Assembly (NCBI GenBank): GCA_905221615.1 | Contig: CAJNDT010002001.1 | Location: 1,731,881 to 1,795,880 of the forward strand | Length of the DNA stretch: 64,000 bases | DNA from: Symbiodinium sp. CCMP2592 | Taxonomy: Eukaryota; Sar; Dinophyceae; Suessiales; Symbiodiniaceae | Direction of reading: 5' to 3' | In this document: positions 3,169 through 43,501 of the stretch, one piece after another | Layout of the letters: each line of letters opens with the position of its first letter | How positions within the stretch are numbered: the first letter of the stretch is position 1 | The notes under the pieces: model-generated | The model's database searches: none | Seen by the model: only the letters and a program-made list of their open reading frames with translations | Told to the model about the DNA's origin: nothing | Made by a program: the position numbers and the translations under genes

Positions 3169-3194
3169 TTGTATTTGTGCGCTGAGCTCCCCTA

Positions 3195-3202
3195 CACTAC
3201 TG

Positions 3203-3245
<43 letters not shown>

Positions 3246-3246
3246 G

Positions 3247-3289
<43 letters not shown>

Positions 3290-3358
3290 GTTCTACAACT
3301 ACTAGTACTACAACTACTAGTAGTAGTAGTAGTAGTAGTAGTACTACTACTACTACTA

Positions 3359-3414
<56 letters not shown>

Positions 3415-3431
3415 GTACTACTGTACTACTG

Positions 3432-3465
<34 letters not shown>

Positions 3466-3541
3466 GCTACTACTACTACTACTACTACTGCTACTACTAC
3501 TACTACTACTGCTACTGCTACTGCTACTGCTACTGCTACTG

Positions 3542-3580
<39 letters not shown>

Positions 3581-3582
3581 TT
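3195..3582. repeat. (TAC)n microsatellite with internal strand switch
   Basis: About 390 bp of ACT/CTA trinucleotide repeat. At about 3316-3342 the + strand changes from (ACT)n to (AGT)n and back, so the two strands of the repeat face each other and could fold back. Later units are interrupted by TGCTAC. Poly-Thr and poly-Ser frames through it are repeat artefacts. It lies on the 3' side of the LINE. Confidence 0.95.
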
Positions 3583-4361
3583 TTTCAATTGAACGCTGTG
3601 CGAGCGGGCTCTGCACATAGCGGGCGATTGCCGCGGTGCACTCACTTTGGTGTGAAACTGACTCAGACCCTATAGCTGATCCGCCCAGGTCAAAAGACCT
3701 TTGAGTGGTTGCGGCCTACAGGCTTTGAGCTAACTGGCAGTGATCAGCCAAAGCGAGTTTGCAGGCTGCAGGGTATCAAGCTCCAGATTGTTGTATGTAC
3801 CTGAACATTGAAACGGAATTCGCGTTGTGTATGCTGTCAGCAGAGCAGCAGTAGCGCGACCGGCAGCAGGCTAGGGCATGATTTCCGACTGACAGCGGCG
3901 GCATCCGGCAGAAGGGCCATCAGTCTGTCTCGGAAGAGACGCAAGTGAGAACAGGCATGGCCTCCGCGACTTACTGCTTAGTCTGCCAGTGGCACCATTG
4001 GTTGCAGCGTTGGAGAGGGCATGCAGGGCGCTGCCTTGCCGCTGCTTGCCGCCTCCGGATGTCTGGCGTCGAGTGTCGACCCCAAGCGGCTCAGATGGCT
4101 CTCCCATTAGTGAATCTGGAGCCAGGGGAGAGGCGGTTCGACCACTTTTGTGGTCCGGGCTGTGGATCGTGTCAGCCATGCTGGGTCAGCCTGAAAAGCT
4201 GCGGGTAAGCCTGCGCATGCCTAAAGCATGCTTGGCCTTGACGTGGGGGGGGCCATGCCCACCTATTGTGGGGTCCGGCCTTCCCACGCACAGGCACCCT
4301 ATTGGTGCACGCATTCCTAGGTTTGGAGGGCCAGCACTCACCCCTTGAGGGTGAGTCAGAG
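3583..4361 (-). other. Probable 3' untranslated region or flank of the LINE
   Basis: These 780 bp follow the LINE stop codon (the LINE reads right to left) and run to the (TAC)n repeat. No coding frame with a recognisable domain is present and no poly-T marking a poly(A) tail was seen. The LINE 3' end may therefore lie at the trinucleotide repeat, but the exact boundary is not visible. Confidence 0.4.
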
Positions 4362-7300
4362 TCACTCCTGTCTTCTCAAGAAAAGGAGGTAGCAGTCTTC
4401 CATAACATGTTTGCGATCTGAGGCCGAGGCTGGGTATGGGCGGGTGGCATCATCCCCCACATACAGCGCGCCTCCATTTGGGTGAATCCAGAAGGACCGG
4501 TAGTGGCCGGAGTGTATGTCAGCACCTATGTGAAAAACTCCCGAAATGACTGCATATTGATGCCATTGCCGGCCCTGACCCTCAATCCAAGACGGCATTG
4601 AGAGGTGCCTGCGCAGGTCCAGCGGGGTGCGTCGTTTTGTGCCGTCCATCCATCGAGCGATTGTGACTGGCAGGATGTCAGGGGCCCATGCCAGGGCGCG
4701 CTGGAACGTGTGGTCATACCATGCCGTGCAGGCCTGCTGCAGTGTACGACAGGCTGAGGAAAGGGGCAGCAGCAACGGCGTGAGGCCGTCATCCTCACTT
4801 TCCGGCACTCCATTAGTGCGTCCTTCCCAGCGAGCGGGTTGCAGAGTCCCCGTGTTGTGCTCTAGCATGTATGTGACAAATTCGGAGGCGTCTTGTTGAC
4901 GGCCATCGAATCGCCATCTAGGCACTAAGGACCGGAGAGCGAATAGGCTTGGAGGGTTTATGTGCCTCGTATCCATTGGATCCGCTTCCGGGTTGATGCA
5001 GTGTTGGACCAGTGGTCCCAGTTCCGCTACATTGGACGCAGAGTCTAGCGCGGCTAGTAGGGCCTGAATGGTCGCATTGACATAGCAGGTGTTACCCGAG
5101 TTCACCATGTGTCGCATACGAGAATACAGGCCTGGCGGGAGAGTGCTGCCGACGGCGCCCGTCGTTGCCATGGCAACAGTGGGTGATGCAGCCGCGGTAG
5201 CTGGCTTGTCTGCAGCCCCAAAAAAGCCACTAAGTGACATTGTCACCGCGGTCTTGGGATGAGGCTTGGAACATTGTTCCCGCATCTTGTCCGTGCCTTG
5301 CACCTTGTGCCACCCAAGCAGAACCTGAAACAGGACAATGCATTGCTCAGGGTGTTTGCGTTTGTCATAGACCGGCAGCCTGCAAAAGGGGCAGGGGTGC
5401 CCCTTTATCATCTGCACAGAATAGGCCTTGCAAAGCTGAAGTGCTGCCGGACCATCTCGCTGCCATGCTTGTGCATGGGCCTGTCGTTGATGATTCTTCA
5501 TCTTGGTATGGTCCGGGGTCCAAAAACCGCACAAAATGCACCGATGCTTAAGCTCCTGAGCCTCTGGACGGGTGGCAATGGCACTGAGTTTGTTGCTGGG
5601 CGAACTCTGCACCTTGGCGCGAAAGGCCGCCAGGCCCTGGAGGGCCTGACCCTGCATCTGTTCCTCAGTGGTGAGAGAGATCTGACGCAGTCGTTCCGGC
5701 TGCGTGCAGGCCCCCGATAAGAGATGGTCACGTAGGCCTTTCCATTGATGGAAAGCCTTGTCGCATGCAGAACATACAGGTAGACCATCCTTGGAGTGCC
5801 GACTGCGATCAAAGGAGGGGGGAATGTACCTTTGCACGTGCTCGCGATGCATTCGCGTGACGTGCATGTGTAAGCCATGTGCAGAGACAAAACCCGACTC
5901 GCAGTGAGGGCAGGCGTGTAGCCGCTGCTGTGAGGCCTCGGTGCTCGCCGGGAGGTTTTCCACCTCTCTCAGCATGTCCTGTAGGTCCTGTACGACGTGG
6001 CTCAGTTGCGTGACGTCACCGTATGTATGTGGTTCAGACGGCTGCTGGTGTGTTGCTAGGCCCGTCGCTGGTGGACTCAGCCTGGCCCATGGGCCCCGCG
6101 TCGCTGAGGGTTCACTGGGAGTGTGTGCAGGCAGGGCTGTAGTGGTGGCTTCGGAGGGGGCTGTTCTCTTGCACAACCGCTTGAGTCTAGAAGCCATCCT
6201 TGTTTGGATTTTGGCTACCGGGTCTTGGATTGAATATAGTCGGTACAGGTCAGCTGTAGGTGTGTGGCCGACGTGTGCAGGCTGATTGAGGACCGAGCGT
6301 ATCTTGTGCGCATACCAGCCTCTAAGATGCCTGGCCGTCTCCTCCGTGAGGCCGACTTCGGGGAGTCCCGTGACCAAGGTGGCCCAAACGGTGGTGAACC
6401 AGACCTTTAGCCTGGCCATTGGCCCCGCGGTGCGGCGATTGTAGACGAATCGCTTGACCTGCTGGAGCTTTTTGGCAGCCTCCGCTATGCGGAATCGCAG
6501 CGTCTGCATTTCAAAGTTCCCATAGGAAATTTGGATGCCCAGGTACTTGATTTGCACCTCAAGTTTGTATGCAGGGAAGGATCTGTGCTTGCCCAGTCGC
6601 CAATGCCGCTGTAGTGTGCCCGTCGAGTCGGGCAGCCAGCAGGTGTGCTTCTTAAGCACGGCTTCCGCCTCTCTGCCGTTAAGCTTGACTAGCATGGCAC
6701 ATTTGGCCGGGTTGACGCATAATCCCAGTTTCGTCACCTCCGACAGAAGCTGTAGGATCATCTTGTGAGCAGCGTCCACGTCTGTTTGGCTGCGGATGGT
6801 GCGATGCATGGTGAAGTCGTCCGCGTAACCTGTAAAGTATCTGCGGACATTGTCCCAGCCAAATGCGTCTATCAGTCTATGAAGGAGGCGGCCTGTGAGC
6901 ACGGAAAACAGCGTGGGGGCCAACTTGCAGCCTTGTTTGATGCCAGTGGTAGTTTCCACGTCCTTGTAGGCCCCCTGAGAATGAAGTCTGTATTTAGATC
7001 GATGATGAAGGCCGTGTATGAGTTTCTTAAGCGGGGGATCCGCGCCCAGCTCATCTAGCAGGGACAAGATCTCACTTCGGGACACAGTGTCGAATGCCTG
7101 TGACAGGTCTAGTGCGAAAGTGATGCCGCCGACGAGACCTACAGGACATTGTCCCCGCTGCTGATCCGCTCGGGTGAGATTCGCATTGCGACAGAGCTGC
7201 CTTGCTTCCCTTAAATGCTGAACCACTCTGCTCTGTGCATCCGAAAGACCTCTCCCAGGGAGGTATGCAAACTGGGGTAGAGGCTTCATGTATGGCAGCG

Positions 7301-8574
7301 TGAAAGGCTCCAGGAGCTCCTTGGCCGTGCCCGCCAGTCCTTTAGCATCCGGGCGAAGAATGCCCAGCGGCCTGAGTTGTGAAGGCTTGTCAGCCGGCTT
7401 GCCCGGTTTTGGGATTAAGCAGAGATCTGCGCGAGTCAGATCGTCGTCCAGTGACTGGTCCTGCGTCAGGCTTGAACAGTATTGTGAAAGCGCCGCAGAG
7501 ATCGGCTGAGCACAGAGCTTCCAGGCTGCGGCCGGTGCCGCTCCTTTCGGAACTGCCTTGCTAGGCTTGATCGAGGCAATATGTTTTGCTAACTTGGTCT
7601 GTGGCAATAGGGGCAGGAGTCCCGAATCAGACGGGAGCTGTGGGTGCGCCGCAAAGACCTTAGTTGCATACTTCCCCAGTTCATCCAGTTCGTTTGCAGG
7701 ACTGAGCAGGAAGCCGTGCGCGTCCTTAAGCTGAGCTTTCAAAGCCGGTTTCCACGGCCGGAGGTGCTTAAGAGTCTGATATGCCAGGTGCTGATCGCCC
7801 TGGCTCAGAGCCTGATCAACCTCAGCAAGAAACCGTTTGGTCTGGTCCTTGCGAGCCTGCTTAACCGCCTGTTTATGCTGATCACACAGCCTCTGCCGGG
7901 CTTCATCCTCCGGCGATGGCTCCGCACTGGGGTGAGCATTGCTCCCACGCGCCGAGCGCCACATGCGTCTGGCAAGGCTCGTCTCCGGACTATCTGGCAT
8001 TGCCACTGGGGTCTTAGGGAAAAACCTGGATGCGGCTTCGCCAAGGAGGCGATCCCATGACGCCGGCTGCATGTCCGGAGTGAGTCGTGCTGTAACCCAC
8101 TCGAGCATGTGCTGAGCTGGCAGCGTGTTGTCCCTGACAGCCGCTTGCAGAGCAGCGGTGTCATAATGATGCTGCTGTATCTGAGGGGCTGGCAGGTTCC
8201 AGTGCCGAACTGGTTTGACAGCTGCACTGATGGGTAAGTGCCCGCCTTTCTTCCAGCTTCCAAGCGGGAAAGCTGCCAGCGGCGTAGAGTTTTTGGCAGC
8301 TCCTCCAGCAGAGACCTCCCTCGTAAGCACAAAGTCAATTTGAGTGCGCGTATCCCCTTGCTGAAACGTATGTGGCGGCTGAGGCCTCCACGTGTTGAGG
8401 GCAACCAAGCGATGATTAAGCAGAAAGTTGGTAAGCTCTGGCTCATCAGATCTCGGTTCCTGTGGGCTAATGATCTCTGGACCAACCAGCCTAGGCTGCT
8501 TTTGCAAGGAACTATTGAAATCTCCTGCCAGGATAAGCGTGTCCCTGTGCGGCACGCGTTGCACGCATCTGCTA
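4362..8574 (-). CDS. LINE polyprotein, distal part: endonuclease end, reverse transcriptase, zinc fingers, USP deubiquitinase
   Basis: About 1,400 codons without a stop. Residues counted from 8564: the EEP endonuclease C-terminal half has LILAGDFN (D15, N17), TQIDFVLT (D77) and KKGGHLPI (H109). The reverse transcriptase spans about 380-690: IPKPGKP and LRPLGI, motif A FALDLSQAFDTVSR (D486), motif B GIKQGCKLAPTLF, motif C YADD (580-583), then YLGI. Four zinc fingers lie at about 884-1080 (CPHC, CSAC, CILC, CPFC starts). The last 250 residues are a USP-type cysteine protease: Cys box NSGNTCYVN (C1160), QQDASEF (1223-1229), His box HSGHY (H1354), YVGDD and terminal YLLFL. Reverse transcription and target priming follow from the family; the deubiquitinase role is inferred. 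The gene is broken from its 5' part by the transposon insertion. Confidence 0.93.
8573..8574. other. Target-site duplication TA, left copy
   Basis: TA directly outside the left terminal inverted repeat. Using TA as the duplicated target restores the LINE reading frame exactly; assigning TA to the repeat instead would shift the frame out of the GDFN endonuclease motif. Confidence 0.8.
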
Positions 8575-8595
8575 CCAGATGCCCCGCTTTGCTTA
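8575..8595 (+). repeat. Left terminal inverted repeat, 21 bp
   Basis: Begins CCAGATGCCCCGCTTTGC and is an exact reverse complement of 18223-18243. Similarity continues weakly inward: TAAGTTAG follows on both sides after an 8-base length difference. Confidence 0.92.
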
Positions 8596-8710
8596 TAAGT
8601 TAGTTAAGGAACTCAGGGAACTTATAAGTGAACTTATCTTGAAGTTATGTAAATGAGTTATAAGTAAGTTAATCAGAACTTAGAGCTAACTTATAAGTTG
8701 AGTGTAAGTT
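8592..8710. repeat. Left subterminal palindrome cluster (ACTTATAAGT)
   Basis: CTTATAAGT or close variants occur at 8592-8600, 8619-8629, 8656-8665 and 8688-8699; the last is the perfect palindrome AACTTATAAGTT. The same motif recurs at the other end of the element (18075-18084, 18143-18153, 18208-18218). Clustered subterminal repeats are typical transposase-binding sites in CACTA-like elements; binding here is inferred. Confidence 0.8.
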
Positions 8711-8762
8711 CATTTGTGTTTTGCTCCAGGGGCTTTTTTTCCACTGCAGACTGTTGTCATCG

Positions 8763-10751
8763 TCAATGCAGACACGAGATTGTGTTGCCTACGCATCTCA
8801 TGTAAAGTGGCAGATTGATGTCTGCAGAAGGTGTCAGGGGCAGCAAGGTCTGTCTGTCAGTAGTTTGCCAGACGGACCCCCAAGCATGCTTCCGTAGAAG
8901 CTGCAGGCGCACTGTGAGCACACAGAAGCCGGATCTTCCGCGGAAGCATTCCAGCACTTGAGCAGCTTTATCATCCCACATGATGACGTCTTGAGGCCGG
9001 ATTAGCAGCTTGCCGAAGCGCAGTGCTTTGCCGGACTGGAGATCGGGGTCGCTGGCGAAAGCTCGCAGTTCGCAGGATGCTGGTCGGAAGGGCTTCAGCA
9101 ACTCCGGAGGCAAGAGTAAGCCATGTTCCTCAGACTCTCTCAGCGTCACATTGAGCAGGCGAGAGAGCAGCGCGATCTGGAATTTTGAACTGACATTGAC
9201 GTGAGCTCTTTGGTGCGCAGCGATGTAGGATTTGTAGACCCTGTGCTTGGATTCCTGGGTTTCGCAGTTGGGGAGAAAGGACAGAGTGACACAGCCCGCA
9301 GGCAGGTGCAATCTATGATGATGCTTAGGCCGCATGGTTTCGCGACCCCACGCCTGCGGCCAGGCTTCTTGATGCTGCTGCTGTAAGCGATGGAGCATCT
9401 GCACATCAGCTGAAGCCAGGGGTCGCTTACTTGCCTTGAGGCGTCGCAGCTCCGCAGAGATGCTTTTCAAGAGGAAAAAACTCCTGCAGACTGCGGGCTT
9501 CAGCTCTGCCTTGTGTAGGAGCTTGTGAACAAGATAATAGAGCAAGAAAACAAAGTTCCAGCACAGGGCACCGTTGCCTTTGAAACCATCATTGGAGTCG
9601 TAGAGGGTAGACCGGAAGCAAGACTTCAGTTCTCCAGCAGTTTCTGCGCGCGGTTGCCAACCTTCGTCTTGCACCAGTTGCCACAAGGCATCCAGATCGC
9701 GGATGCTTTGGAGCTCGCGCATGGCGAGTCCTACCTCCCAGGAGGCCACCCCGTTAACAAAGTAGGCATGCAACACGTCATTGCACGCGCAGGAGGGAGG
9801 CAAGCGTTCTCGAGTGTCTGCGTCTTGAAGCAGTGACCCTGGCACGAAGTTGAAACCATATGCTTTCTGCATCCTGGCGCGTTCGCCTGCAGTGGCAATG
9901 GCAGCCAAGTGATCCGCCGCGGCGAAGATCTCAGAGTCAGATGCGATGTGAAAGCTGTGAAATCTGCTTTCGCAGATATCAACAAACCTTCCAGAGCCCG
10001 TTGCGGCCTGTGGAGCATCGCGCTTGAGCAAGTTCGCGCACCAGAGGCAGGGCTTGTACCCGCTGGAACCTTTATTGCAGTAAGTGGCACGTTGGGCATC
10101 GTGATCTGCAATGAAGAGAGCAGTGGGAGCGAGCTGAACTCGAGCCCGTGCACCATGGGCACCCATGTTCAGGTCGAAGCCTTGCCTGTTGGCAGGCTGC
10201 AGGATATGCTGCAGCACCTTGACCGTGGCAGCTGAGACACCGCCCAGCACGGTATCGGCTACGTGATGCTGCAGCAGCGCCACGGGCAGCCATGCATTTT
10301 CCTTGGCCGCAACATGGCCGAACTCTTGGAAAGTCAGGTACCAGATGGTGGCCTTGAGCTTCTTCTGGGGACTTAAGATGTTTCCCGCTGTGCACTCGTC
10401 GTGATACAACAGGACGCGAAGAGTTGCAGTCCTCGCGAGCGCGGCTTGCAGCATGGAGCACCATTGCGAGCTCTTAGCCGCGACTTCCTGCAGCATCGCT
10501 TGGGCGTCTGCCACCCAGAAGTCTAGCTCTGAGCCCCGGGTTCCTTGCAGCGTCAAGCGGCAGTAGCACTTCTGGAGAGGGGCGTAGTACTCACTAACGC
10601 GGCGCCAGAAAGTACCCTTGGACCATTTCTCATTTTCCTGCGCGCGTCGATTCTGGATAGCCAAAACTGTGGTCTCACTTGCACCACGCAGGTGCAGGCA
10701 AGAGGCGACAGCTTCTGCGTCCAGAATTTTTCGTTTCTTGTTGTTGACCAT
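8763..10751 (-). CDS. DDE transposase, CACTA/Mirage/Chapaev-like
   Basis: 662 residues from ATG 10751 in a GCCATGG context. Candidate catalytic residues: D118 in LYHDECTAGN, D216 or D218 in FIADHDAQ, and E500 in CETQESKHRVYK. Between them are a C-x2-C pair (PCLWC, 235-238), a D-x2-H motif in CNDVLHAYF (325-328) and a His cluster RPKHHHRLHLP (475-485). Spacing and these extra motifs recall the CMC and Plavaka-type transposases rather than Tc1/mariner, although the TA target is the one Tc1/mariner also uses. The role inferred is cutting and rejoining at the 21-bp repeats 190 bp downstream. The frame is unbroken, so the element could have been autonomous. Confidence 0.72.
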   Translation of the reverse strand: MVNNKKRKILDAEAVASCLHLRGASETTVLAIQNRRAQENEKWSKGTFWRRVSEYYAPLQKCYCRLTLQGTRGSELDFWVADAQAMLQEVAAKSSQWCSMLQAALARTATLRVLLYHDECTAGNILSPQKKLKATIWYLTFQEFGHVAAKENAWLPVALLQHHVADTVLGGVSAATVKVLQHILQPANRQGFDLNMGAHGARARVQLAPTALFIADHDAQRATYCNKGSSGYKPCLWCANLLKRDAPQAATGSGRFVDICESRFHSFHIASDSEIFAAADHLAAIATAGERARMQKAYGFNFVPGSLLQDADTRERLPPSCACNDVLHAYFVNGVASWEVGLAMRELQSIRDLDALWQLVQDEGWQPRAETAGELKSCFRSTLYDSNDGFKGNGALCWNFVFLLYYLVHKLLHKAELKPAVCRSFFLLKSISAELRRLKASKRPLASADVQMLHRLQQQHQEAWPQAWGRETMRPKHHHRLHLPAGCVTLSFLPNCETQESKHRVYKSYIAAHQRAHVNVSSKFQIALLSRLLNVTLRESEEHGLLLPPELLKPFRPASCELRAFASDPDLQSGKALRFGKLLIRPQDVIMWDDKAAQVLECFRGRSGFCVLTVRLQLLRKHAWGSVWQTTDRQTLLPLTPSADINLPLYMRCVGNTISCLH

Positions 10752-11263
10752 GGCACGCAGCGTTGCTTCTCATGTACTTACTAACCGAGGCTTGCAGGGA
10801 TTTGCGGCTATACCAGAGGGTTTCTTTTCAGAGGGCTTCGTTTCAGGCCGCCATGTCTTTATTGGGTATAGTCATGTTTCCGTGACCACACTAAGCCCAT
10901 AATTTCTAAACCTAAACGGCCCGAACTTTGACTATAAAGCCTCTATAGAAGCCTATTGGATACCAGGGCTTCCCGACATCCTAAAACCTCTGTAACTTCT
11001 TCCCCTATGAAAAAATGTGTGTCTGTATTCATCTTTTAAGCATTTTTAATAAGAACGGTTTTTTAGGGTTTGTATATATGTGGGGTGTAGGGTTGGGGGT
11101 CTACTGTTTAAGATTAGAAGTCTGCACAAAAGCTGCGAAGAAGAGCTGGTCCCAAGAACTTAGTAATTGCAGAAGTCCAGGCAGCAGCTGTAACAGAAGG
11201 GTTTTGAAACCATGGCTGAGCATGTGAAAGAGACCTTCTTTTTTGTAGCACCTGCAGCACTCC
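10752..11263. other. Spacer between transposase and Cys-repeat gene
   Basis: No gene seen. The stretch contains telomere-like degenerate text (TTTCTAAACCTAAACGGCCC near 10905; TTTTTTAGGGTTTG near 11060), the same signature as host introns in this window. Confidence 0.5.
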
Positions 11264-11761
11264 TCAGTCGAGACTGTGTAGGTCCAGGTCTTTTGGAGTC
11301 GTCTCGAAAGAGAGGTCTCCTTTGAGATCAGAAGCGGAGGTCGCCCCGAAGACATTCCCGGGCATTGGTGCTTGAGACGAAGACCCAGTGCCAGCAGCTG
11401 AACTGCTTGGAGCAGTACGCTCAAGAGCCGCAGCTCGTTTGTTGCATCCGCGCGTATGTCCTCTGTCGGGGGTGCGATCGCAGGTGCGACAACAGTAGAG
11501 GCGCATGGACGAGACCCTGCGCGGGCAGTTCAAGCAAAATTGCCCAGCCCTCTCAGCTAGCCGGCCAGAAGCACTAGCTGCGGCCAGCCTCTCAGCACGT
11601 CGCGCACAGTCTTCTGTATGCAGGCCTTGCTCTCGGCAGAGACTGCAGCAGTGTCTGTGCCTAGCGTCGTAAACCCTGACAGGGCAGCCTGGACTTCGGC
11701 AAGGCCACGACTCCGCGTGAAGGACCGGCACGGAGCTGGGGACTGAGCTCTGGACAGCCAT
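11264..11761 (-). CDS. Small protein with two Cys/His-rich knuckles
   Basis: 165 residues from ATG 11761 (GTCGATGGCTG); an earlier in-frame ATG at 11797 is possible. Two related modules follow each other: C-x4-C, then HCC-x2-C-x5-HT-x3-C (GCPVRVYDARHRHCCSLC) and C-x2-C, then YCC-x2-C-x5-GHT-x3-C (RLYCCRTC). Each could bind one or two zinc ions. The C-terminal 50 residues are Ser/Ala/Thr rich and look disordered. It lies between the transposase gene and the Lys/Ala-rich gene in the same orientation. A DNA- or protein-binding helper of transposition is the natural guess; I do not recognise the family. Confidence 0.55.
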   Translation of the reverse strand: MAVQSSVPSSVPVLHAESWPCRSPGCPVRVYDARHRHCCSLCREQGLHTEDCARRAERLAAASASGRLAERAGQFCLNCPRRVSSMRLYCCRTCDRTPDRGHTRGCNKRAAALERTAPSSSAAGTGSSSQAPMPGNVFGATSASDLKGDLSFETTPKDLDLHSLD

Positions 11762-12068
11762 CGACGCTAACACCTTGAGCCAACCCAGGTGGTACATGGA
11801 AAGAGGTATCACAGCTATATTGATCGCAGACAGCAGAAGCACAGGACTGCTGCCAAAGGGATAATGCACATCTGAAGTAAAGTCAATTCAGAAAATCAAA
11901 TGCTCTGGGCATGGGGCTCCTTTTATTCTTTTCTGCGAACCCAAGACTTATGCTGGTATAGATTTGCTGCCGAGCAGACAGGCAGATGCAGATACACCGC
12001 GCATCCTCTGGGAAGATAACACGGTCAAACGCAAAACCACAAAACGGCTCTTAGCCGGAAGAACTCTC

Positions 12069-13184
12069 TCAAGCCGCTGCTTTGGCTTTCCCATTGACGC
12101 GGTGCTTAGGCTTAGCCTTGGCTTTGCCTGCGGCCTCAGCAGCTGCAACAGCCTCGTCTTTCTTGGCGCGGACAGTACTGCGCAGCTCCTTCACAGTAGC
12201 TTTGCTCGCCTTCTCGTAGTCCGAAAACGTCTCCGCAGTGAAGGGCAGAGCAGGGAGAGACTGCACCGGAGCCGCCGGGTCCTTGCGGGCAGCGTTTTCG
12301 TAGTTCTCCTGGAACTGCAGAGCCGAGGTGGCAGCGGTCTTCCAGGCGAGAGCCGTAGCTAAGGCCTCGGCGAAGCTTGTGCGAAGGTCAGGCGCGAGGT
12401 CGTCCCAGAACTTCGTGGCGAAACCCTTAGCCGAGTTGAGCGAGGACACCAGCGTGGAGAGGGGGCCAACAACCTTGGCTGCCAGAGCAGCCGTTGTCTT
12501 GTTGCTTTTCAAAACCAAGCGTTCCGCTTTGGCTTCCTCCTGCGCCTCCTTCTTCTCAGCTTTGTTGCTTTCGGAAGCTTTGCTTCCTGCAGCAGCGGAA
12601 GGAAGGTCCAGGTCTGGCTCCTGCTGCTCTCCCTCTTGCAGCTTCCTTTTCTTGCCCTGCCGGCTCTTGGTCACCTCCTGCTCTTTCGTAGTGAGCTCCT
12701 CGTCGATTTCTTCGTCGATCTGGCGAACCGTCTTCTCCATGACGGGAACACGCCACACCGTGCCCAGCTGGGCATCCTCCATGAAGTCCTCCTTGGCCCG
12801 GACCTGGCTCTCGGTCCAGCCAGCAGCCAAGTGAACGTTCATGGGAAGGTACTTCCCTCCCACACTGACTTCACTTTGCTTGATTCTCCGCAGAATCATG
12901 TGCTCCTTGACGAGGGCCCGCACGGTCTTCCACTCCAAGCGGCCAGAGCCTGTGCTCTTGATCTTCTGGTAGAAGGTGACCTTGTCCTCCAACGTGGTAG
13001 CGACCTTGCCGCCCAGCTTGTGCTGCAGCATGGACGAAACGTTCACGCAACACGAGCAGACAAGCTGGGCCCCACGTTTGCTCACCTTCTCACAGAGCAG
13101 GAGGCAAAGGGCGCACTTTTGACGCTCTGGCTGCGCAGGGGCTTCGGCCGCAGCCGAGGCTTCACGCAGTGTCGAATCCGCCAT
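12069..13184 (-). CDS. Lys/Ala/Glu-rich protein with N-terminal Cys cluster, unknown function
   Basis: 371 residues from ATG 13184 in good context (CAGCATGGCGG); the frame stays open 24 codons further without ATG. Near the N terminus is KCALCLLLC followed by LVCSCC, a probable zinc site, then a region with WESQ-like helices. The middle (about 150-230) is highly charged with a basic KSRQGKKRKLQE stretch that could be a nuclear localisation signal. The C terminus is Lys/Ala rich (KAKAKPKHRVNGKAKAAA), reminiscent of histone-like tails. Eleven ATACAAGA motifs lie 108-345 bp upstream. Family not recognised; a DNA-associated accessory protein is inferred. Confidence 0.55.
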   Translation of the reverse strand: MADSTLREASAAAEAPAQPERQKCALCLLLCEKVSKRGAQLVCSCCVNVSSMLQHKLGGKVATTLEDKVTFYQKIKSTGSGRLEWKTVRALVKEHMILRRIKQSEVSVGGKYLPMNVHLAAGWTESQVRAKEDFMEDAQLGTVWRVPVMEKTVRQIDEEIDEELTTKEQEVTKSRQGKKRKLQEGEQQEPDLDLPSAAAGSKASESNKAEKKEAQEEAKAERLVLKSNKTTAALAAKVVGPLSTLVSSLNSAKGFATKFWDDLAPDLRTSFAEALATALAWKTAATSALQFQENYENAARKDPAAPVQSLPALPFTAETFSDYEKASKATVKELRSTVRAKKDEAVAAAEAAGKAKAKPKHRVNGKAKAAA

Positions 13185-13291
13185 GCTGTGGCGGGCAAAG
13201 AAACGGCGAGGCGCAGAGGAAGCTAAAGCGACTGGAGGAGCTGGAACTGCGGACAACCCCGAAGCTTGGATTCGGCCGGTGCGTCTTTAGT

Positions 13292-13527
13292 ATACAAGAA
13301 AATACAAGAATTATACAAGAATTATACCTGCGGAAGCATACAAGATATACAAGAATGCGGTTATAAACCAGAAAGGCGGTTGACCAGGCTTCTGTATTTG
13401 TATGAGTGTATACAAGATTTATACAAGAATTGATGCTATCCTAGAAAAGCAGGTTTTGTATAGTTATACAAGAATAATACAAGAACCCTACACGATAACA
13501 AGTTTTTCCATACAAGATTATACAAGA
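13292..13527. promoter_or_regulatory. Eleven ATACAAGA motifs in helical-phase pairs
   Basis: ATACAAGA starts at 13292, 13302, 13313, 13338, 13347, 13410, 13421, 13466, 13477, 13510 and 13520. Within each cluster spacing is 9-11 bp, about one DNA turn; clusters are 25-63 bp apart. Most copies continue as AT. The array lies directly upstream of the minus-strand gene starting at 13184. This looks like a binding-site array; the binding protein is unknown. Confidence 0.7.
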
Positions 13528-13529
13528 AT

Positions 13530-13855
13530 GACAAGGCCATGGTTTTGTTACGGGCATGGCTAAACAACATCTCACAGGGATACGCGGGCATTGACTTCTC
13601 TAAAAAGCGACACGTCCACATCTGCAGACCAAAGGCGAGAGTAACATCTACGAGAGCCTCGGACCTCGGTCTTCAATTCGCTACGTGGGGTTATGATGGG
13701 CAGAAGGGTTTAGGGCTCAAGAGAAGTGAAAGTATAGCGGAAGCTTAAAGCTCGGGTGCGGTTCGGGAGTTATTTGGGGTTTAGGTTCGGGTTGCTAAGA
13801 GGTTTAGGCGGGTTACATTATTTTATCCCCCAAAACGAAGGCTATAGGAAGCTAC

Positions 13856-13886
<31 letters not shown>

Positions 13887-14023
13887 GAGGATTGTGTATT
13901 ACATGTGCTTGTTCTCGAACTCTATATAGGGTTTAGGCTCGGGCTTGCAGGGTTTCCGGGGTAGAAGCCTTCAGGAGAATGGAGCGCTTTTTGTCTCGAA
14001 GCGAACCTTGTCTGCGCTGCGTC
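13530..14023. other. Spacer within the transposon
   Basis: No convincing gene. Contains telomere-like text (GTTTAGGTTCGGGTTGC near 13780, GGGTTTAGGCTCGGG near 13927) and a CATA/TA microsatellite at 13856-13887. Confidence 0.5.
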
Positions 14024-14842
14024 TCACCAGTTGCGCAGCTCTTGCGCCGCCACTTGGAAAAGAGCCGTTAAGACCTTGCCCCGGTCCCCTGGACCCCACC
14101 CCCCCGGGCCGTCAGGGGGGTCTTTGGGTCCAGCCGGCAAAGCCTTTGCCCGCGGGCTGGGCGAGCGCTTTGCGGCAGGTGTTTTGGTCGTGCTGGACCA
14201 CAAAGCCTCAGCTTTCTTTTTGCCGCGGCTCTGGCAGAGGTGCCAGGGCCGCAGCCCTGATCGGTACAAAAGCATGGCCTGGTGTGGGCCAGACCGACAG
14301 TGCTGGTCCATGCCAGAAGGCCCTCCACGCACCTCCCGATTGCAGAGTCTGCAGTGTCCGACAGCATCCTTAGACTCTGTCGGTGCTTGAGACGCAGCAC
14401 GGCCGCTCCTGTCCCTGGGCTCCTTCTTCGCCTTCTTGCTGGGGGCAGCTTGGCCACGCTCAGACCTTCGGCGGCGGCGGCGGTCGTGGCCGCCGTCCCG
14501 GCGGCTGCGCCTGGACCTTGACCGCCCTCTTTTTTCCTCCTTTTTTCCTTTGTCTTTGTTGCGCTGCTCGGCACGGGCTTTGGGGCTTCTTGTGCGCTCC
14601 CCTTCACGGGGGCGGTGTCTGGACTCCTCCGCGGCGGCTCGCGCGTCTCTGTTGGACAGGAGTCTCGCGCGTATGCGCGCTGCCTCGCTTGGCGGGTCAG
14701 CAGGTTCTGGAGGCGCCGTGCTCTTGGTCGGTGCCTCAGGAACCGGCGCCGGCACAGGCAGACTCGCAGCCGCCGGGGCAGCCTCTGAAGAGTCCTCGGA
14801 CTCGGAGCCGCTCTGGTCGTCCACCTCCTCGATCTCCACCAT
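14024..14842 (-). CDS. Arg/Ser-rich protein with a C2H2-type finger
   Basis: 272 residues from ATG 14842. The N terminus is acidic ([19 protein letters not shown]), followed by a Pro/Ala stretch, then a long basic Arg/Ser/Lys region with RS and RRRRRRS runs (about 95-150) that should be nuclear. At about 165-190 lies [20 protein letters not shown] with a later H, a finger similar to those of RNA- or dsRNA-binding U1-type fingers. The C-terminal quarter is Pro/Gly rich. It is in line with the other transposon genes on the minus strand. The overlapping 264-codon frame is a shadow: it lacks the ordered acidic, RS and finger layout. Function unknown; nucleic-acid binding is likely. Confidence 0.55.
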
Positions 14843-14862
14843 GCGGCCTGCAGCATGGACAC

Positions 14863-14957
14863 GTATATCTATACATATATATATATATATATATACACAT
14901 ATTTATTTATTTGTTTATTTATGTATGGTCTTCGATACAGTACATATATATATATAA

Positions 14958-15008
<51 letters not shown>

Positions 15009-15085
15009 TTATATATATATATATATATATATGTATATTTACAGTGTGTATATATATATATATATATATATGTACTTCCTGATTG
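14863..15085. repeat. (TA)n microsatellite, right-hand side of spacer
   Basis: Several blocks of (TA)n broken by TTTATTTATT and TGTATA. The poly-Tyr/Ile frames through it are artefacts. Confidence 0.9.
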
Positions 15086-15099
15086 TTGAGACAGGGCCA

Positions 15100-15489
15100 G
15101 CGGCCAGAATTTGTCCTCAGACCGGCCCGGCAATGCAACCAGTCCGCAGACTGGAGCTAAGAGATTGCATGCGGCCGCAGCCGCAGAGGCAGATTTCTGG
15201 GTATCAGTCCGCAGACAGATCCCGTGCAGGAACGGTCCGCAGACCGAACCTGCCATACTGCATCCACACCATGGTGCCGCCGCAGGCAAGACAGACACAT
15301 GCGTGCAGCCGCAGCCGCAGAGGCAAGTGCCGCTGCCCTGGAAACAGTCCGCAGACTGAGCCATTGGCAGTCCGCAGACTGAAGCATCCTCCACACCGCC
15401 GCAGCGGTGGAGGACATCAACGTCATCTCCGCAGAGATCCGCGACACTGAGCAGTGTTTGGTTTGTGTCGCCGCAGCACGACAGCTGCG

Positions 15490-15490
<1 letters not shown>
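15100..15490. repeat. Array of short hairpins with constant CGCA loop
   Basis: A GC-rich 390-bp island between two (TA)n tracts. It holds at least seven perfect small palindromes of the form stem-CGCA-stem: 15139-15154 (CCAGTC/GACTGG), 15171-15184 (GCGGC/GCCGC), 15233-15246 (CGGTC/GACCG), 15345-15358 and 15368-15381 (CAGTC/GACTG), 15394-15409 (CACCGC/GCGGTG) and 15425-15438 (ATCTC/GAGAT), plus one with a single mismatch at 15203-15220. Stems differ but stay complementary, so pairing rather than sequence is conserved. Confidence 0.8.
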
Positions 15491-15552
<62 letters not shown>

Positions 15553-15800
15553 GTGGCAGGAACCTTTATGTATAATGTGACTTCCTCTTTGGCCTTGCTT
15601 TAAGCCTACTAATAAACTAAGTGTGTACTACATCTTGAAGCCTGTATATAATATACTATAATATAATATAATATAATATAATATAATATAATATAATATA
15701 GTATAGTATAATATAATATAATATATTATAATATATTATAATATAAATGTAAATATATAGTTATATATATATATATATATATATATATTATGTGTGTTTT
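15491..15800. repeat. (TA)n and (ATATA)n microsatellites
   Basis: (TA)n at about 15497-15552, a TATAA/ATATA pentamer array at about 15648-15745, and further (TA)n to about 15790. No gene. Confidence 0.9.
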
Positions 15801-15934
15801 CTAAATGTTGTATAATCTTTCATTTCTTCATTTACTATATGACTTGACGACACCCAGCGTGCCTTGTGGCTGCCGGGGCCACCGTGACCCGGAGCCGGCT
15901 TCGCAGACCCTTCTTGAGCCAGAAGAGTGCGTAT

Positions 15935-16027
15935 TCGCTTTATGCGCATGTGCATGTGTGCGTGTGTGTGGGTGTGGGTGTGGGTGTGCGTGTGGGTGTG
16001 CGTGTGTCTCTGTGTGTGTGTGTGTTT
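15935..16027. repeat. Imperfect (GT)n microsatellite
   Basis: GTGTGTGTGGGTGTGGGTGT-type dinucleotide array just downstream of the minus-strand gene ending at 16178. No gene in it. Confidence 0.85.
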
Positions 16028-16177
16028 CTAACCCTAGACATATACGGCCTATAAAACTTGGCAAGACTATAACAGCCGACTTTTCTTCTTCAAAGCAGAA
16101 CTCCACGTGTTTCTCAGCCAAGAAGGCACAAAACCTTGGCCTCAAGATAGATAGAGGTAAATCTCAAGATCAAAAGA

Positions 16178-17425
16178 TCAGGCCGCAAACTCAGCCTTAG
16201 CTTTGCGGTAGGCACGGCGGCCAGCTTCAGCAGCGGACTCTTTGCTCTGACCCGCAGCCAAAGCGCGGTTTCGGGCGCCGTGGTAGGCTCGAGAAACCAC
16301 ACAAGCAAAAGTCTGGGAAAGAGCCTGCTTTCCTGCCGCAGCAGGCTTCTTGCAAGCAGCTGGCTTCTTGTGTTGTGACTGACGCACAACTTTGGGCTTC
16401 GTGGCAGCTGCCGGGCGAGCAAAAACCTTGGTCTGAGCAGCCGGGCGGGCAAACCTCTTGCCCTTCTGTGGCTTCTGGTTGTCCTGGGACTGCTTGAAGG
16501 CCGAGGCCAGTTCCAGAGCGTTGTCGCGCAACGTGCAAGCCTTGGGCGGGGGGCTCTGCAAGTCTAGGCAAGCCGACGAAGGTGGCTGCTCCTCGCCCGC
16601 AGGCGGTGTCACAAGCGACACCTGCTGTGGCTGCTGCGTGGCGGCAGGCGGAGGCGGCAGCGCCAACTGCTGTGCTTGCACTGTGGAAGCCGAGGCTGCT
16701 TCGCGAGGCGGCGTTTGAAGTTCCAGACTTCTCTTACCTCTGAAGCGACGTCCCGGGCTGAGGATCTGCAGACCTGGCAGACCTATGCCAGTGTCTGCTG
16801 CTGCAGTTTGGCGACCACCCTGCATCATCATGGAGACGAGCGGTGTCACCGCAGCTTGCACAACGGCTGCAAGTTGGTGCCCCGAAGGCTGCGCCCCGGA
16901 AGCAAGAGCCTGGCTGGACTGGGCCGTCTGCTCTGCCACAACGCGGTTGGTCTTGCGCAACGGCACACGAGCCGCAAGCTCGTCTAAGCGTCGCTGGGGA
17001 ACAGGCCACTCAGCTTCCGGCAACGGTGGCTCGGCTGGGACATAAGGCTTCGGCAACTCATCCATGTTTCCAGGGAGCTCCTGCAGCCAAGGCTCCAGAC
17101 CCTCTGAAGGCAACTTCGAGAGCCTGGAGTACAGCTGCTTCCACAAACGTTTCACCGTCAGAAAGTTCTGGTGCAACTGAAACGAGCTGCTGTCGCCGTT
17201 GCGAAAGGTCACAGCAGCAGTCAAGTAGGCCACTGTCAGCTCGCTGGGAAGACGAAGCCCCAGCCCAAAAAGAAACGTTCCCAGCTTCTCTACAGAGTCA
17301 ACCAAGAACTGTGCCTCCTGCAGGTACCGCCACAGCGATGCCGGCATGTAACGGATGAAGCGGCGATAATCCTGAGGATTTCGCCGCTTAGCAACAGTCT
17401 CCTGCTGCTGCTGCTGTGAGGCCAT
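16178..17425 (-). CDS. Gln/Pro/Ala-rich protein with KKPAA repeats, unknown function
   Basis: 415 residues from ATG 17425; the frame is open 15 codons further upstream but without ATG. The N terminus has a polyglutamine run (MASQQQQQ), followed by about 120 residues of apparently folded sequence (ASLWRYLQEAQFLVDSVEKL). The middle is Pro/Gln/Ser rich and probably disordered. The C-terminal 100 residues repeat K/R-PAA units (RFARPAAQ, VFARPAAA, KKPAACKKPAAAGK), lysine- and alanine-rich like histone-H1-type tails, ending in a helical KAEFAA. It is codirectional with the other transposon genes. A chromatin- or DNA-associated accessory protein is inferred; the family is not recognised. Confidence 0.5.
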   Translation of the reverse strand: MASQQQQQETVAKRRNPQDYRRFIRYMPASLWRYLQEAQFLVDSVEKLGTFLFGLGLRLPSELTVAYLTAAVTFRNGDSSSFQLHQNFLTVKRLWKQLYSRLSKLPSEGLEPWLQELPGNMDELPKPYVPAEPPLPEAEWPVPQRRLDELAARVPLRKTNRVVAEQTAQSSQALASGAQPSGHQLAAVVQAAVTPLVSMMMQGGRQTAAADTGIGLPGLQILSPGRRFRGKRSLELQTPPREAASASTVQAQQLALPPPPAATQQPQQVSLVTPPAGEEQPPSSACLDLQSPPPKACTLRDNALELASAFKQSQDNQKPQKGKRFARPAAQTKVFARPAAATKPKVVRQSQHKKPAACKKPAAAGKQALSQTFACVVSRAYHGARNRALAAGQSKESAAEAGRRAYRKAKAEFAA

Positions 17426-17715
17426 TGCAAAAGCCAAGCTGTCTAAAACGAGCCTACACGAAAAGCACACTGTACAAACTCTATATCAATTACATTTGAG
17501 CCAACCAAAACAACCACAGAGGAACAGAGAAAGAGAGAATGACCATCAAATAACTTTTGCAGGGGAGTCTCGTCCTGCCTTCAGCTTTTCTTCTTGCAAG
17601 CAGGAAATCCAGAGTGCAGAGATGTCTACAGCTCCGAGTCGGTGCAGCTTAATTAAAGAAGCTTCAGCTGTGGAGTTTTCGGTGCCAAAGGCCCAGCAGA
17701 CCTCAATCTGCTATC

Positions 17716-17928
17716 TCAGTCTTCGTCTTGCTGCTCCGCATGCTTCTGGAACCAAGCCTCGTCGAAAGCATGTCTCCTCAAAAGCTCCCAGCGAAGCTTC
17801 AGGCCCAGGTTCCTCGCAGGAGCCTGACGGCTGCTCATCAAGTACCGATAAGTAGCTATCAGTTTGCGGTCGCTGCTCTTCTTCAGAAGATGATTCTGCA
17901 CTTCGTGCGGATTCACGACCTCCGCCAT
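17716..17928 (-). CDS. Small 70-residue protein, first gene of the transposon
   Basis: 70 residues from ATG 17928 in strong context (AGCATGGCGG). The sequence is mixed and protein-like, probably helical (HEVQNHLLKKSSDRKLIATY, then LLRRHAFDEAWFQKHAEQQ). It is the transposon gene nearest the right end, 315 bp inside the inverted repeat. Function unknown. It may be a short first exon of a longer gene, since its stop is followed by a 290-bp gap before the next frame. Confidence 0.45.
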   Translation of the reverse strand: MAEVVNPHEVQNHLLKKSSDRKLIATYRYLMSSRQAPARNLGLKLRWELLRRHAFDEAWFQKHAEQQDED

Positions 17929-18001
17929 GCTCAGGCTCAACCTTTTTACACAGCGCAACCACTAAAACTCCCGCGAGCCCAAGCTGCGGAGATGACAGCA
18001 A

Positions 18002-18222
18002 TCATGCTAAAAAACTATTTTGTAAGTCCATCCTAAGTCAAAGCTAAGTTCATTCTATGTATTTTGGACGCCATAACTATAAGTCACTTATAACCTCCGG
18101 CGAAGTAGCCTTAGTAACATATATGTCCAAGCGAACTTATCGAACTTATAAGTAGCCTAACATACCTTATGTGTAGGTTACCAAATTTATAACTTGCCTT
18201 GCATCCTAACTTACAAGTCCGC
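18002..18222. repeat. Right subterminal region with ACTTATAAGT-type repeats
   Basis: AACTATAAGT (18075-18084), AACTTATCGAACTTATAAGT (18134-18153) and AACTTACAAGT (18208-18218) mirror the cluster at the other end. No gene in this stretch. Confidence 0.75.
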
Positions 18223-18243
18223 TAAGCAAAGCGGGGCATCTGG
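18223..18243 (-). repeat. Right terminal inverted repeat, 21 bp
   Basis: Exact reverse complement of 8575-8595. The adjoining TA at 18244-18245 is the second copy of the target duplication. Confidence 0.92.
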
Positions 18244-18973
18244 TAAGAGCCTTCAGGACATGTGCTCTGTCCTGACGATTGGTCTGTACCTGCTTGGCCG
18301 GTGACCAGACGTGTTGATACACAGCAACCAGGTTGATGCGGGCCCCGTGCCAGTCAAACCTGACCTCCAGGGCTCTGCCTATGACATGTTCCTGCCAGCG
18401 CACACTTTTGGGCAGTATGTGTGGGGACAGGAAAACCATAACCCCGTCCGCGCGAGTTGTTGAGGGCTCCTTGCGGGGTGGGGTCATCTTATCGTCATTA
18501 GGCATTGCCTCTGCAGGTGACTGTTTATGGGCCTTGCCCCCGCGTTGCTTTCGTCTAGAGGCCTTCGGATCTGCAGCAGAAGCAGACGAGATGCAGTACC
18601 AGCCTGCAACACTAAATTCGGCCGTAGCCTGCCAGTGGGTCTCCTGCAGGACGAACACATCACAGGTGTGGTGTGCCTCAGTGGAGAGCCATGATTTGAC
18701 TTCCGACCATTGTTGCTGGCCAAGATGGCCTGCATTCCAGGACAGTACTCGGAGAGGCCTGGTGGCCTGTCCTGCCCGAGATCGTGGTGCAAAAGACTGC
18801 TTGGAGCCCGGCTGCGGTGGGCAGTTGCCCATGCGCCTGAGAAGAGCTGGGGTCAGAACCTGACCTCGGTAAGAAACAGGCTGCTGGCTTGCAGCCACCT
18901 GTCGGCAAACATGCTTGAAAGAATTCTTCCTGATCTGAGAATAATTTTGTGAGTGCACTGGGAGCAGCGCCAT
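18244..18973 (-). CDS. LINE polyprotein, proximal part: N-terminal half of EEP endonuclease
   Basis: Starts at ATG 18973, with an in-frame TAG two codons upstream. After about 70 residues comes the EEP core: LRVLSWNAGHLG (the Asn motif), VFVLQETHW (catalytic Glu), DGVMVFLS and INLVAVYQH. The frame then meets the transposon terminal repeat at 18243 and ends at a stop about 40 nt inside it. Removing the insert with one TA joins Leu-Ser-Arg-Cys-Val and runs directly into the GDFN motif at 8518-8525. An endonuclease of this class nicks target DNA to prime reverse transcription. A second minus frame (19127-18678) overlaps it and may be a remnant of an upstream reading frame. Confidence 0.88.
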
Positions 18974-19258
18974 CCGCTATTTCGTCACAAGGCAAGCCGA
19001 GTGACTCCCTCCACCACGCGGCTAGTGGAAACCCTACCGCCTGCCCAGTGGGCCCGTGTTGAGACAGGGTACTGGGTCCAGGAATTGGGACCTGGCGGCT
19101 CAGACGCAAACAGTTGGCACATGGCACATGGCTCAGCGCGAGGCACCAACCCTTAGTCGTTCAGAGAGAGGCCTGTTTGAGACCTCTAGCAACGAAGGGT
19201 TGGAGTCCAGAGCCTGTTCGAAAGCCAGCGCGAAACTTCCAAAACGTCTGAGCCGTGG

Positions 19259-19261
19259 CGG

Positions 19262-19319
<58 letters not shown>

Positions 19320-19470
19320 CACTACTTCTACGTTTGCTACTTCTGCTATTTCCACTACTTCTACTAGTTCTGCTACTCCTGCTACTTTTGCTTCTTCTGC
19401 TGTTTTTGCTGCTTCTGCTTCTGCCTCTACTTATACGTCTATGTCCTGCTGCGGCTGCTGCTGCTGCAAG
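19259..19470. repeat. (CTA)n microsatellite decaying into (CTN)n
   Basis: A clean (CTA)n run at 19259-19316, then a degenerate pyrimidine-rich triplet tract to about 19470. It lies beyond the 5' end of the LINE coding region and matches in strand the (TAC)n on the other side of the LINE. Confidence 0.9.
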
Positions 19471-42143: not shown

Positions 42144-42539
42144 GTCATTTACACACATAGATCCCGACGTCATTTTGGGCCTTGCAGCATCCGATGGAAC
42201 AGGATTTGTACAAACACTCTCTGAGGTGGGGTCTGCAACATCTTTCGACGGGCTGCTTGGCAATAGCATGCAGCGTCCAGGATACAGGACAACAGGCTAT
42301 GATGTTCTTTCGTTACCGCCGTAAAGTAGTGCCTGTTGTTATCGTATACTGTCGCTATGTCCTGGTATAACGGTATAATGTTTGTTCGGGTATGTTCACA
42401 TGTCTGCTTGTTGTTATTGTTCGTGCGGCCACTGCCGCTTGTCGACTTGCTGTGAACATCAGATTTCACGAGTTCGCCAGCAACAGTCTAATGATCCGAT
42501 ACCAGCATCAGCGTCATTACAATCTCTTCAACTAGGGAT

Positions 42540-42893
42540 ATCATTTAGCTCAAAAAGCACTATTACCCGCAACAGCAGCATCAGCAACATCAACCAACAA
42601 GGCATCCGCAGCAGCAACAGCAAAAACAGCAGCAGCGCAGCAGCAGCAGCTGCAGCCGCAGCAACAGCCACAACAACAGCAATAACAACAGCGACGACAC
42701 TATCAAACTCAACAACCACAACATCAACTACGACGACGACAACGACGACAACAACAAAAGCAGCAACAGCACCACCACCGACAACAGCAACAACAACATC
42801 ATCAACAACAACAACAACAGCACCACCACCACCACCACCACCACCACCACCACCACCACCACCACCACCACCACCACCACCACCAGTAGCAAT

Positions 42894-42924
<31 letters not shown>

Positions 42925-43410
42925 ACAACGACAACGACAACAGCAACAACAGCAGCAGGAGCAGCGACAACTGCGACAACGACACTAATAACTACTATCA
43001 ACTCCAGCAAGAACAACAACTCGAACACCAGCAACACCAACACCACCACCAACAACACAAGCCACAACAAATATAACAACAACAACAACAACAACAACAA
43101 CCACAACCACAACCACAACAACAACGACAACGACAACGACAACAACAACAACAACAACAACAACAACAGCAACAACAACAACAACAACACCACCAACAAC
43201 AGCAGCAACAGCAGCAACAGCAGCAGCAGCAACAGCAACAAGAGCAACAACAACAACAACAAGAACAACAACAGCAACAGCAACAGCAGCAACAACAACA
43301 ACAAAAAAAAAAAAGACACGAACAAGAACAACAACAGCAACAAGAACAACAACAACAACAACAAGAAGAAGAACAATAAGAACACCAACAGCAACAACCA
43401 CAACAAGAAT

Positions 43411-43501
<91 letters not shown>

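Follow-up and report, generated by a model that had tools for sequence, protein, structure and literature searches.

A LINE of the dinoflagellate Symbiodinium sp. CCMP2592 with a putative ubiquitin-specific protease domain at the C terminus of its polyprotein

We describe a LINE of the dinoflagellate Symbiodinium sp. CCMP2592 whose single open reading frame continues from the reverse transcriptase (RT) into a ubiquitin-specific protease (USP) domain at the C terminus. Computation gave the domain with its conserved catalytic residues, the fusion in multiple copies and multiple lineages, purifying selection, an open RT-USP frame, (AGT)n flanks and near-identical copies. Our preferred reading, to which we assign a probability of about 0.5, is that a USP captured long ago would deubiquitinate in cis and protect the LINE protein or its ribonucleoprotein (RNP) from proteasomal loss. 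The window, that is, the whole stretch of 64,000 nucleotides that was analysed, holds one split copy of this element, with the following features:

3190..3580 (left limit approximate), minus strand: (AGT)n/(ACT)n microsatellite on the 3' side of the insertion site
3581..4361, minus strand: 3' UTR, which ends ...TTCAATTGAAAAA and is followed by (AGT)n; its 3' end word is common to 29 of 30 copies (L009-L038, the window copy being L015)
4362..8574, minus strand: 3' part of the single LINE ORF, with the end of the EEP endonuclease, RT, Cys/His fingers and USP; stop codon at 4362-4364
4365..5117, minus strand: ubiquitin-specific protease (C19/UCH) domain, from Pfam, motifs, catalytic residues and PDB profile matches
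5300..6000 (approximate limits), minus strand: Cys/His fingers and linker from RT to USP, from the sequence; the fingers also occur in a sister family
6528..7415, minus strand: reverse transcriptase domain, RVT_1, residues 397-692, E 1e-21 (Pfam)
8575..18243, no strand given: DNA transposon inserted in the LINE copy, splitting it, and not itself LINE sequence; 9,669 bp, 21-bp inverted ends, TA duplication
18244..19261, minus strand: 5' UTR and N-terminal portion of the ORF, cut off from the rest of this LINE copy; from the match to copy L040
19262..19316 (right limit approximate), minus strand: (AGT)n microsatellite on the 5' side of the insertion site

The minus-strand frame that holds RT and USP together is stop-free over 1413 codons (4362-8603), and its last part, beyond 8574, is reached by reading through DNA-transposon sequence. 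Position 8603 was considered as the start of the element and rejected, since the 5' UTR and the initial ~730 nt of the ORF were found at 18244 to about 19261. This severed part matches copy L040 at 98.9% over 1095 nt (window 18236-19329, both ends slightly overrunning the element). The uninterrupted site of the transposon was recovered in three of six other copies tested (L039, L040 and L041, of the window copy's subfamily), and the exact-match search word for that site had no match in the remaining three, from diverged subfamilies. The window copy is dead, being split by the transposon, and its RT-to-USP part alone is intact. Within this part RVT_1 and UCH lie in one frame with zero stops between them, which upholds the sequence-only reading in its claim of a frame continuous from RT to USP. 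Part of the EEP endonuclease is also seen in the window frame (Exo_endo_phos_2, E 0.0011, under its Pfam cut-off), and the Cys/His fingers of this frame had no match above the Pfam cut-off. Compared with solved structures, the RT frame matched eight sequences at E<=0.01: three of R2, four of LINE-1 ORF2p with a best E of 6.3e-8, and 8c8j (E 2.5e-8), which bears the name RNA-directed DNA polymerase. The EEP placed before the RT, the LINE-like RT and the dispersed near-identical copies that share their ends identify the element as a LINE, that is, an APE-type non-LTR retrotransposon.

The inverted ends of the DNA transposon nested in the LINE copy, 21 bp each, are exact, and TA is duplicated. 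Five of its frames were scanned, including those of 668 aa (8763-10769, minus strand), 405 aa and 435 aa, with no Pfam match at E<=0.05, and it possibly belongs to an undescribed family. Elsewhere in the window, the region 42379-43653 has long frames on either strand and lies in a zone, at 42-44 kb, whose strands are strongly skewed in composition (GC skew -0.42, AT skew 0.58); it is probably a simple repeat array.

The sequence-only reading had named five USP motifs in the translation of 5117-4374, and NSGNTCYVN, QQDASEF, HSGHY, YVGDD and YLLFL do occur in that order, in one frame of the minus strand. It had also suggested a search with the UCH profile (PF00443), and here the match is significant: E 2.4e-10 for the full frame, 40.9 bits against a cut-off of 23.9, over residues 1166-1385 and profile positions 3-232 of 254. 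The C-terminal piece alone gave E 7.2e-12 (Pfam), and the UCH region coincides with the last ~260 residues of the frame. Residues N18, C23, Q86, H217 and D235 are invariant in eight of eight aligned USPs, which are 21-92% identical to that of the window; we take these positions to be the oxyanion Asn, the Cys, His and Asp of the catalytic site, plus the Gln. As a single sequence the USP reached a best E of 1.1e-4 with solved USPs. A profile of the eight LINE USPs retrieved 103 distinct PDB sequences at E<=0.001, of which the best 60 are all USPs, with USP46 at the top (E 1.1e-16). The zinc-binding Cys pairs of USP fingers, which are common and not universal in this family, are absent from the aligned LINE USPs and present in the alignment in the USP of another locus of this genome, L004. 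The structure predicted by AlphaFold2 from the single sequence had a mean pLDDT of 37.6, and this weighs against our preferred reading. Taken at the level of sequence, the domain would be expected to have ubiquitin hydrolase activity. P0002 was without a match in NCBIfam, and viral contigs had no match to patterns derived from it.

Other USP domains of this genome, in L004, L008 and L049, are N-terminal in long open frames of up to ~1.8 kaa, and several matches of this type occur on each of the contigs C994, C1987 and C2844. Above the Pfam cut-off, L004 and L008 gave UCH-type matches only. A Helitron label for the three frames was dropped, as Pfam gave for L004 and L008 just UCH-type and weak matches.

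The genome searched comprises 1.10 Gb in 5383 contigs and yielded 25 matches to DVNP (PF19060), a dinoflagellate marker with zero matches in 14 control genomes. The USP piece has at least 129 matches in it, at least 23 of them identical over 312 aa (the window's own included), and other USP matches among those listed show 82-91% identity. As counted by eye among the USP matches listed, 38 of 129 belong to frames that are 1647-1651 aa long (1647 aa in 18, 1649 aa in 4 and 1651 aa in 16), and whole-frame LINE-USP copies are present elsewhere in the genome. When 113 RT matches at >=82% identity were set against 127 typed USP matches among those listed, a USP of the same strand followed within 4 kb downstream in at least 104 of the 113. 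The fusion is thus recurrent in this genome, a point that the sequence-only reading had put forward for checking. In 84 of the 104 pairs the distance from RT to USP is 1200-1299 nt. Nine of the 113 close RT matches are without a downstream USP among the matches listed, which counts against our preferred reading.

In the full-length copy L039, Pfam places Exo_endo_phos at residues 78-330 (E 2.4e-8) and RVT_1 at 631-926 (E 5e-22); L042, L043 and L044 have these domains at the same positions, all four with UCH from ~1400, and the order of EEP before RT is also found in L054. The 5' UTR measures 288 nt in all five copies with a complete 5' end, and with so short a distance from the start of the element to the ATG there is no space for an ORF1. 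From the 5' end to the 3' end motif the element is about 6.0-6.2 kb long (three of six copies, in which both ends were located). Using our own NG86 script on four subfamilies, we obtained a dN/dS of 0.09-0.12 for the USP in all six pairs; in the same pairs the values were 0.07-0.11 for the EEP, 0.02-0.07 for the RT, 0.08-0.17 for the fingers and 0.12-0.64 for the short linker before the USP. The similar ranges of USP and EEP denote a constraint on the USP about equal to that on the endonuclease. The USP domain is maintained by purifying selection.

Regarding the insertion site, in 27 of the 29 copies with the 3' end word a pure run of (AGT)n, >=9 nt long, lies no more than 120 nt from it, the exceptions being L012 with an interrupted run and L037 with none. 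The 5' ends follow directly after (AGT)n-type sequence of the same strand in five of six copies with long 5' flanks (imperfect in L044); the sixth, L041, begins inside the 5' UTR, and the (AGT)n flanks hide any target-site duplication. Since (AGT)n flanks both the 3' and the 5' ends, the element sits within (AGT)n. Microsatellite-specific LINEs have been reported from other clades (PMC4640811). The 30 best-matching copies differ on average by 1.24 nt per 936, and this near-identity indicates a recent spread of the window subfamily. The LINEs of Symbiodiniaceae are described in published surveys as mostly old remnants (PMC8045281; PMC6123633).

The fusion extends to more distant relatives. A sister family is represented by 19 RT matches at 60-61% identity. 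None of the 19 is paired with a USP among the matches listed, which reflects the extent of that listing: three of the 19 copies were fetched, and all of them have the EEP-RT-fingers-USP architecture of the window element. The protein of one of these, L054, is 46% identical to that of the window over 1432 aa, end to end, USP included. The UCH matches of the sister family pass the cut-off of 23.9 narrowly (24.2-25.6 bits, L054 24.2), which weighs against our preferred reading, and between the two families the USP, at 36% identity, is more diverged than the RT, at 60%, which weighs against close constraint. L047, L048 and L050 are distant LINEs whose RTs are 26-32% identical to those of the window and sister families, and they also carry a C-terminal UCH (E 4e-20, 4e-14 and 3e-18, respectively); in L050 the EEP lies in a different frame. 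For seven elements, the RT and USP trees contain identical groups as unrooted trees, and their midpoint roots differ. The LINE USPs form a cluster separate from six further USPs of this genome with a support of 92/92, a value that lies under the 95/80 star of the tool, with two long-branched sequences among the outside USPs. Because the RT and USP trees agree, a single old acquisition of the USP followed by vertical descent would fit these sequences best.

Upstream in L048 (L048:1-9438, plus strand) we observed a copia-type RVT_2 in one open frame of 3423 aa together with EEP, RVT_1 and UCH; it is either a chance in-frame neighbour or a chimera.

Across the RT-USP linker of L047, L048 and L050 we found a further ORF of 337-445 aa in the +1 frame, named ORF X, at these positions:

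L047:6849-7859, plus strand: ORF X
L048:7316-8650, plus strand: ORF X
L050:1296-2543, minus strand: ORF X

The X proteins of these loci are homologous to one another (E 7e-31, 3e-19 and 2e-15, with the low-complexity filter and composition correction off), the main-frame linkers of the same three loci show no comparable match between them, and X has no Pfam match. X is present with a constant frame relation in 11 of 12 further UCH loci (L057-L068, the exception being L066), eight of which were chosen for frames >2000 aa and four with shorter ones. In the resulting 14 loci (L047, L048 and L050 plus these 11), the USP frame is stop-free within X in 13 and has one stop in L065, a shorter-frame locus. 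Synonymous shuffles predict 6.7-12.6 stops in the USP frame within X, and none had zero stops except 1 of 5000 for L061; in the third frame 10-25 stops are observed. Frame length guided the choice of most X loci, and picking long frames favours open ones; among the shorter-frame picks with X, two of three are stop-free. Because several X loci are closely related (L058/L059/L068; L048/L064; L047/L057/L067; L050/L061), they amount to about eight groups and should not be counted as 14 separate instances. Inside X, amino-acid conservation is no higher in the USP frame than in the third frame (e.g. 0.52 vs 0.51), so that selection would act on openness and not on sequence. The USP frame is held open through X, and therefore the ribosome would pass from RT to USP. 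The X frame itself has 2-4 stops per locus in 11 loci, counted across the aligned region with 90 nt added, and X is accordingly a shorter stretch (268-445 aa) in them. Judged by sequence, a conserved X within a nearly stop-free polyprotein frame points to dual coding. To our knowledge, dual coding of this design has not been described for LINEs. X was sought in L039, L044 and L054, with no match at E<=0.1. An overlapping frame of 264 aa in the window element (7805-8599, minus strand) was set aside as chance: it is open in L039, where a run as long arose in only 6 of 1000 shuffles, and not maintained in L042, L043, L044 and L054.

LINEs with other accessory domains are already known. We found no LINE with a USP described in the open-access literature, as partially covered, in agreement with the statement of the sequence-only reading that it knew of none with a C19-type deubiquitinase (DUB); such agreement is no proof of absence. 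The closest likeness is SymbioLINE-Dnmt, reported as a dinoflagellate LINE with EEP (PF03372), RVT_1 and a captured modifying enzyme under purifying selection (PMC5890265). There, however, the enzyme is a cytosine methyltransferase in an upstream ORF1, whereas the window LINE has a C-terminal USP fusion and no room for an ORF1; in all five copies with a full 5' end, the 288 nt before the ATG contain no DNMT-coding ORF1 ahead of the ORF with the RT. The word 'ubiquitin' occurs 0 times in the main text of that paper, and we found no UCH domain named there (PMC5890265). Many matches to a ~563-aa DNMT frame also occur in the genome, in line with what DNMT-bearing retroelements would give, and one stretch read for a DNMT-bearing LINE (L069) showed a kinase-like frame and a gap. 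C-terminal additions to endonuclease and RT are reported for R1-clade insect LINEs, with a viral SF1 helicase, and for plant LINEs, with an archaeal-type RNase H; unlike the window LINE, these are described without a deubiquitinase and from other hosts (PMC4686597). Utopia/NeSL elements resemble our LINE in bearing a cysteine protease with ties to the processing of ubiquitin-like proteins (PMC4640811), but theirs is an N-terminal, C48-type Ulp1 beside a restriction-like endonuclease, and ours is C-terminal, C19-type and accompanied by EEP. Pfam found no Ulp1 in the window frame or the full-length copies. With cellular USPs (peptidase C19, e.g. USP46, USP12 and USP35) the LINE USP shares the Cys, Gln, His and Asp boxes; it differs in being shorter, in fingers without zinc-finger Cys pairs and in being part of a retrotransposon protein. 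Viral DUBs such as TYMV PRO/DUB and the OTU of the nairovirus L protein are encoded with a replicase, and the logic proposed here resembles theirs; their folds are OTU- or papain-like and their carriers RNA viruses, so they offer an analogy only (PMC8123002).

According to our preferred reading, a LINE lineage of this dinoflagellate would long ago have gained a compact deubiquitinase of USP type, placed C-terminally in its single polyprotein, and the polyprotein EEP-RT-Cys/His fingers-USP would be made as one piece. The USP would then work in cis or on the co-assembled RNP, removing host-attached ubiquitin from the element protein, and an RNP so spared would last to reach (AGT)n targets and finish target-primed reverse transcription. 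We place the deubiquitinase on the element's RNP because it is joined to the RT. By analogy, the substrate would be the element's own protein, and deubiquitination would aid retrotransposition: in mammals L1 ORF1p is reported to be polyubiquitylated and degraded (PMC5570191), and TYMV, a plant RNA virus, has a DUB directed to the viral polymerase, according to the title of a reference cited in PMC8123002. An intact-looking USP under selection suggests that the element may guard its own proteins from the protein-disposal system of the cell.

Some cellular USPs target histones and PCNA, and the LINE USP is tethered to an endonuclease-RT that acts on chromosomal DNA. It might thus act in trans on ubiquitinated chromatin or repair proteins (histone, PCNA) at the nick and help target-primed reverse transcription, which we consider unlikely. 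No substrate-specific domain was seen, and histones are thought to be minor in the packaging of dinoflagellate DNA (PMC4751559); given this and the DVNP genes of the genome, a histone target is weakened. The sequence-only reading had offered chromatin trimming beside rescue of the RNP, and in our view it is the weaker of the two. It is improbable, as well, that the domain merely binds ubiquitin or that what it hydrolyses is a different modifier of the ubiquitin-like kind (SUMO-, NEDD8- or Urm-type): its compactness, the missing finger Cys pairs and the USPs of other lineages, only 21-37% identical to that of the window, would allow it, but the catalytic residues are invariant in all eight USPs and the best 60 of the 103 profile matches are ubiquitin USPs. 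USP-type enzymes are not known to act on anything but ubiquitin tails, and the window frame has no ubiquitin-like unit by Pfam; both points speak against a polyprotein-processing protease that would cut the LINE protein as in viruses and LTR elements, to which we give little credence. What favours such processing is the presence of cysteine proteases in other LINE proteins (N-terminal and Ulp1-like, in Utopia/NeSL; PMC4640811). Lastly, chance read-through from a LINE inserted before a host USP gene or retrocopy, conceivable given the many retroposed genes that a review reports in dinoflagellate genomes, is refuted by the constant junction spacing across dispersed copies (84/104 at 1200-1299 nt), the copy number, a USP lying inside (AGT)n-bounded element ends and in several lineages, and a dN/dS of ~0.1, in line with the earlier claim that the USP is not a neighbouring host gene.

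Extending the preferred reading of RNP protection, we tentatively propose an old dinoflagellate 'DUB-LINE' clade that would have acquired one finger-less minimal USP, kept it while the RTs diverged to ~30% identity as a counter-defence on its own RNP and, in part, come to dual-code X; we hold this wider proposal with less confidence.

LINEs are usually held to depend on host machinery for what lies beyond endonuclease and RT. The DUB joins the DNMT among the enzyme types borne by dinoflagellate LINEs, and the LINE USP provides an example of a compact USP without finger Cys pairs. If our preferred reading is true, ubiquitin-based restriction of retrotransposons in these algae would be strong enough for an element to carry its own antidote.
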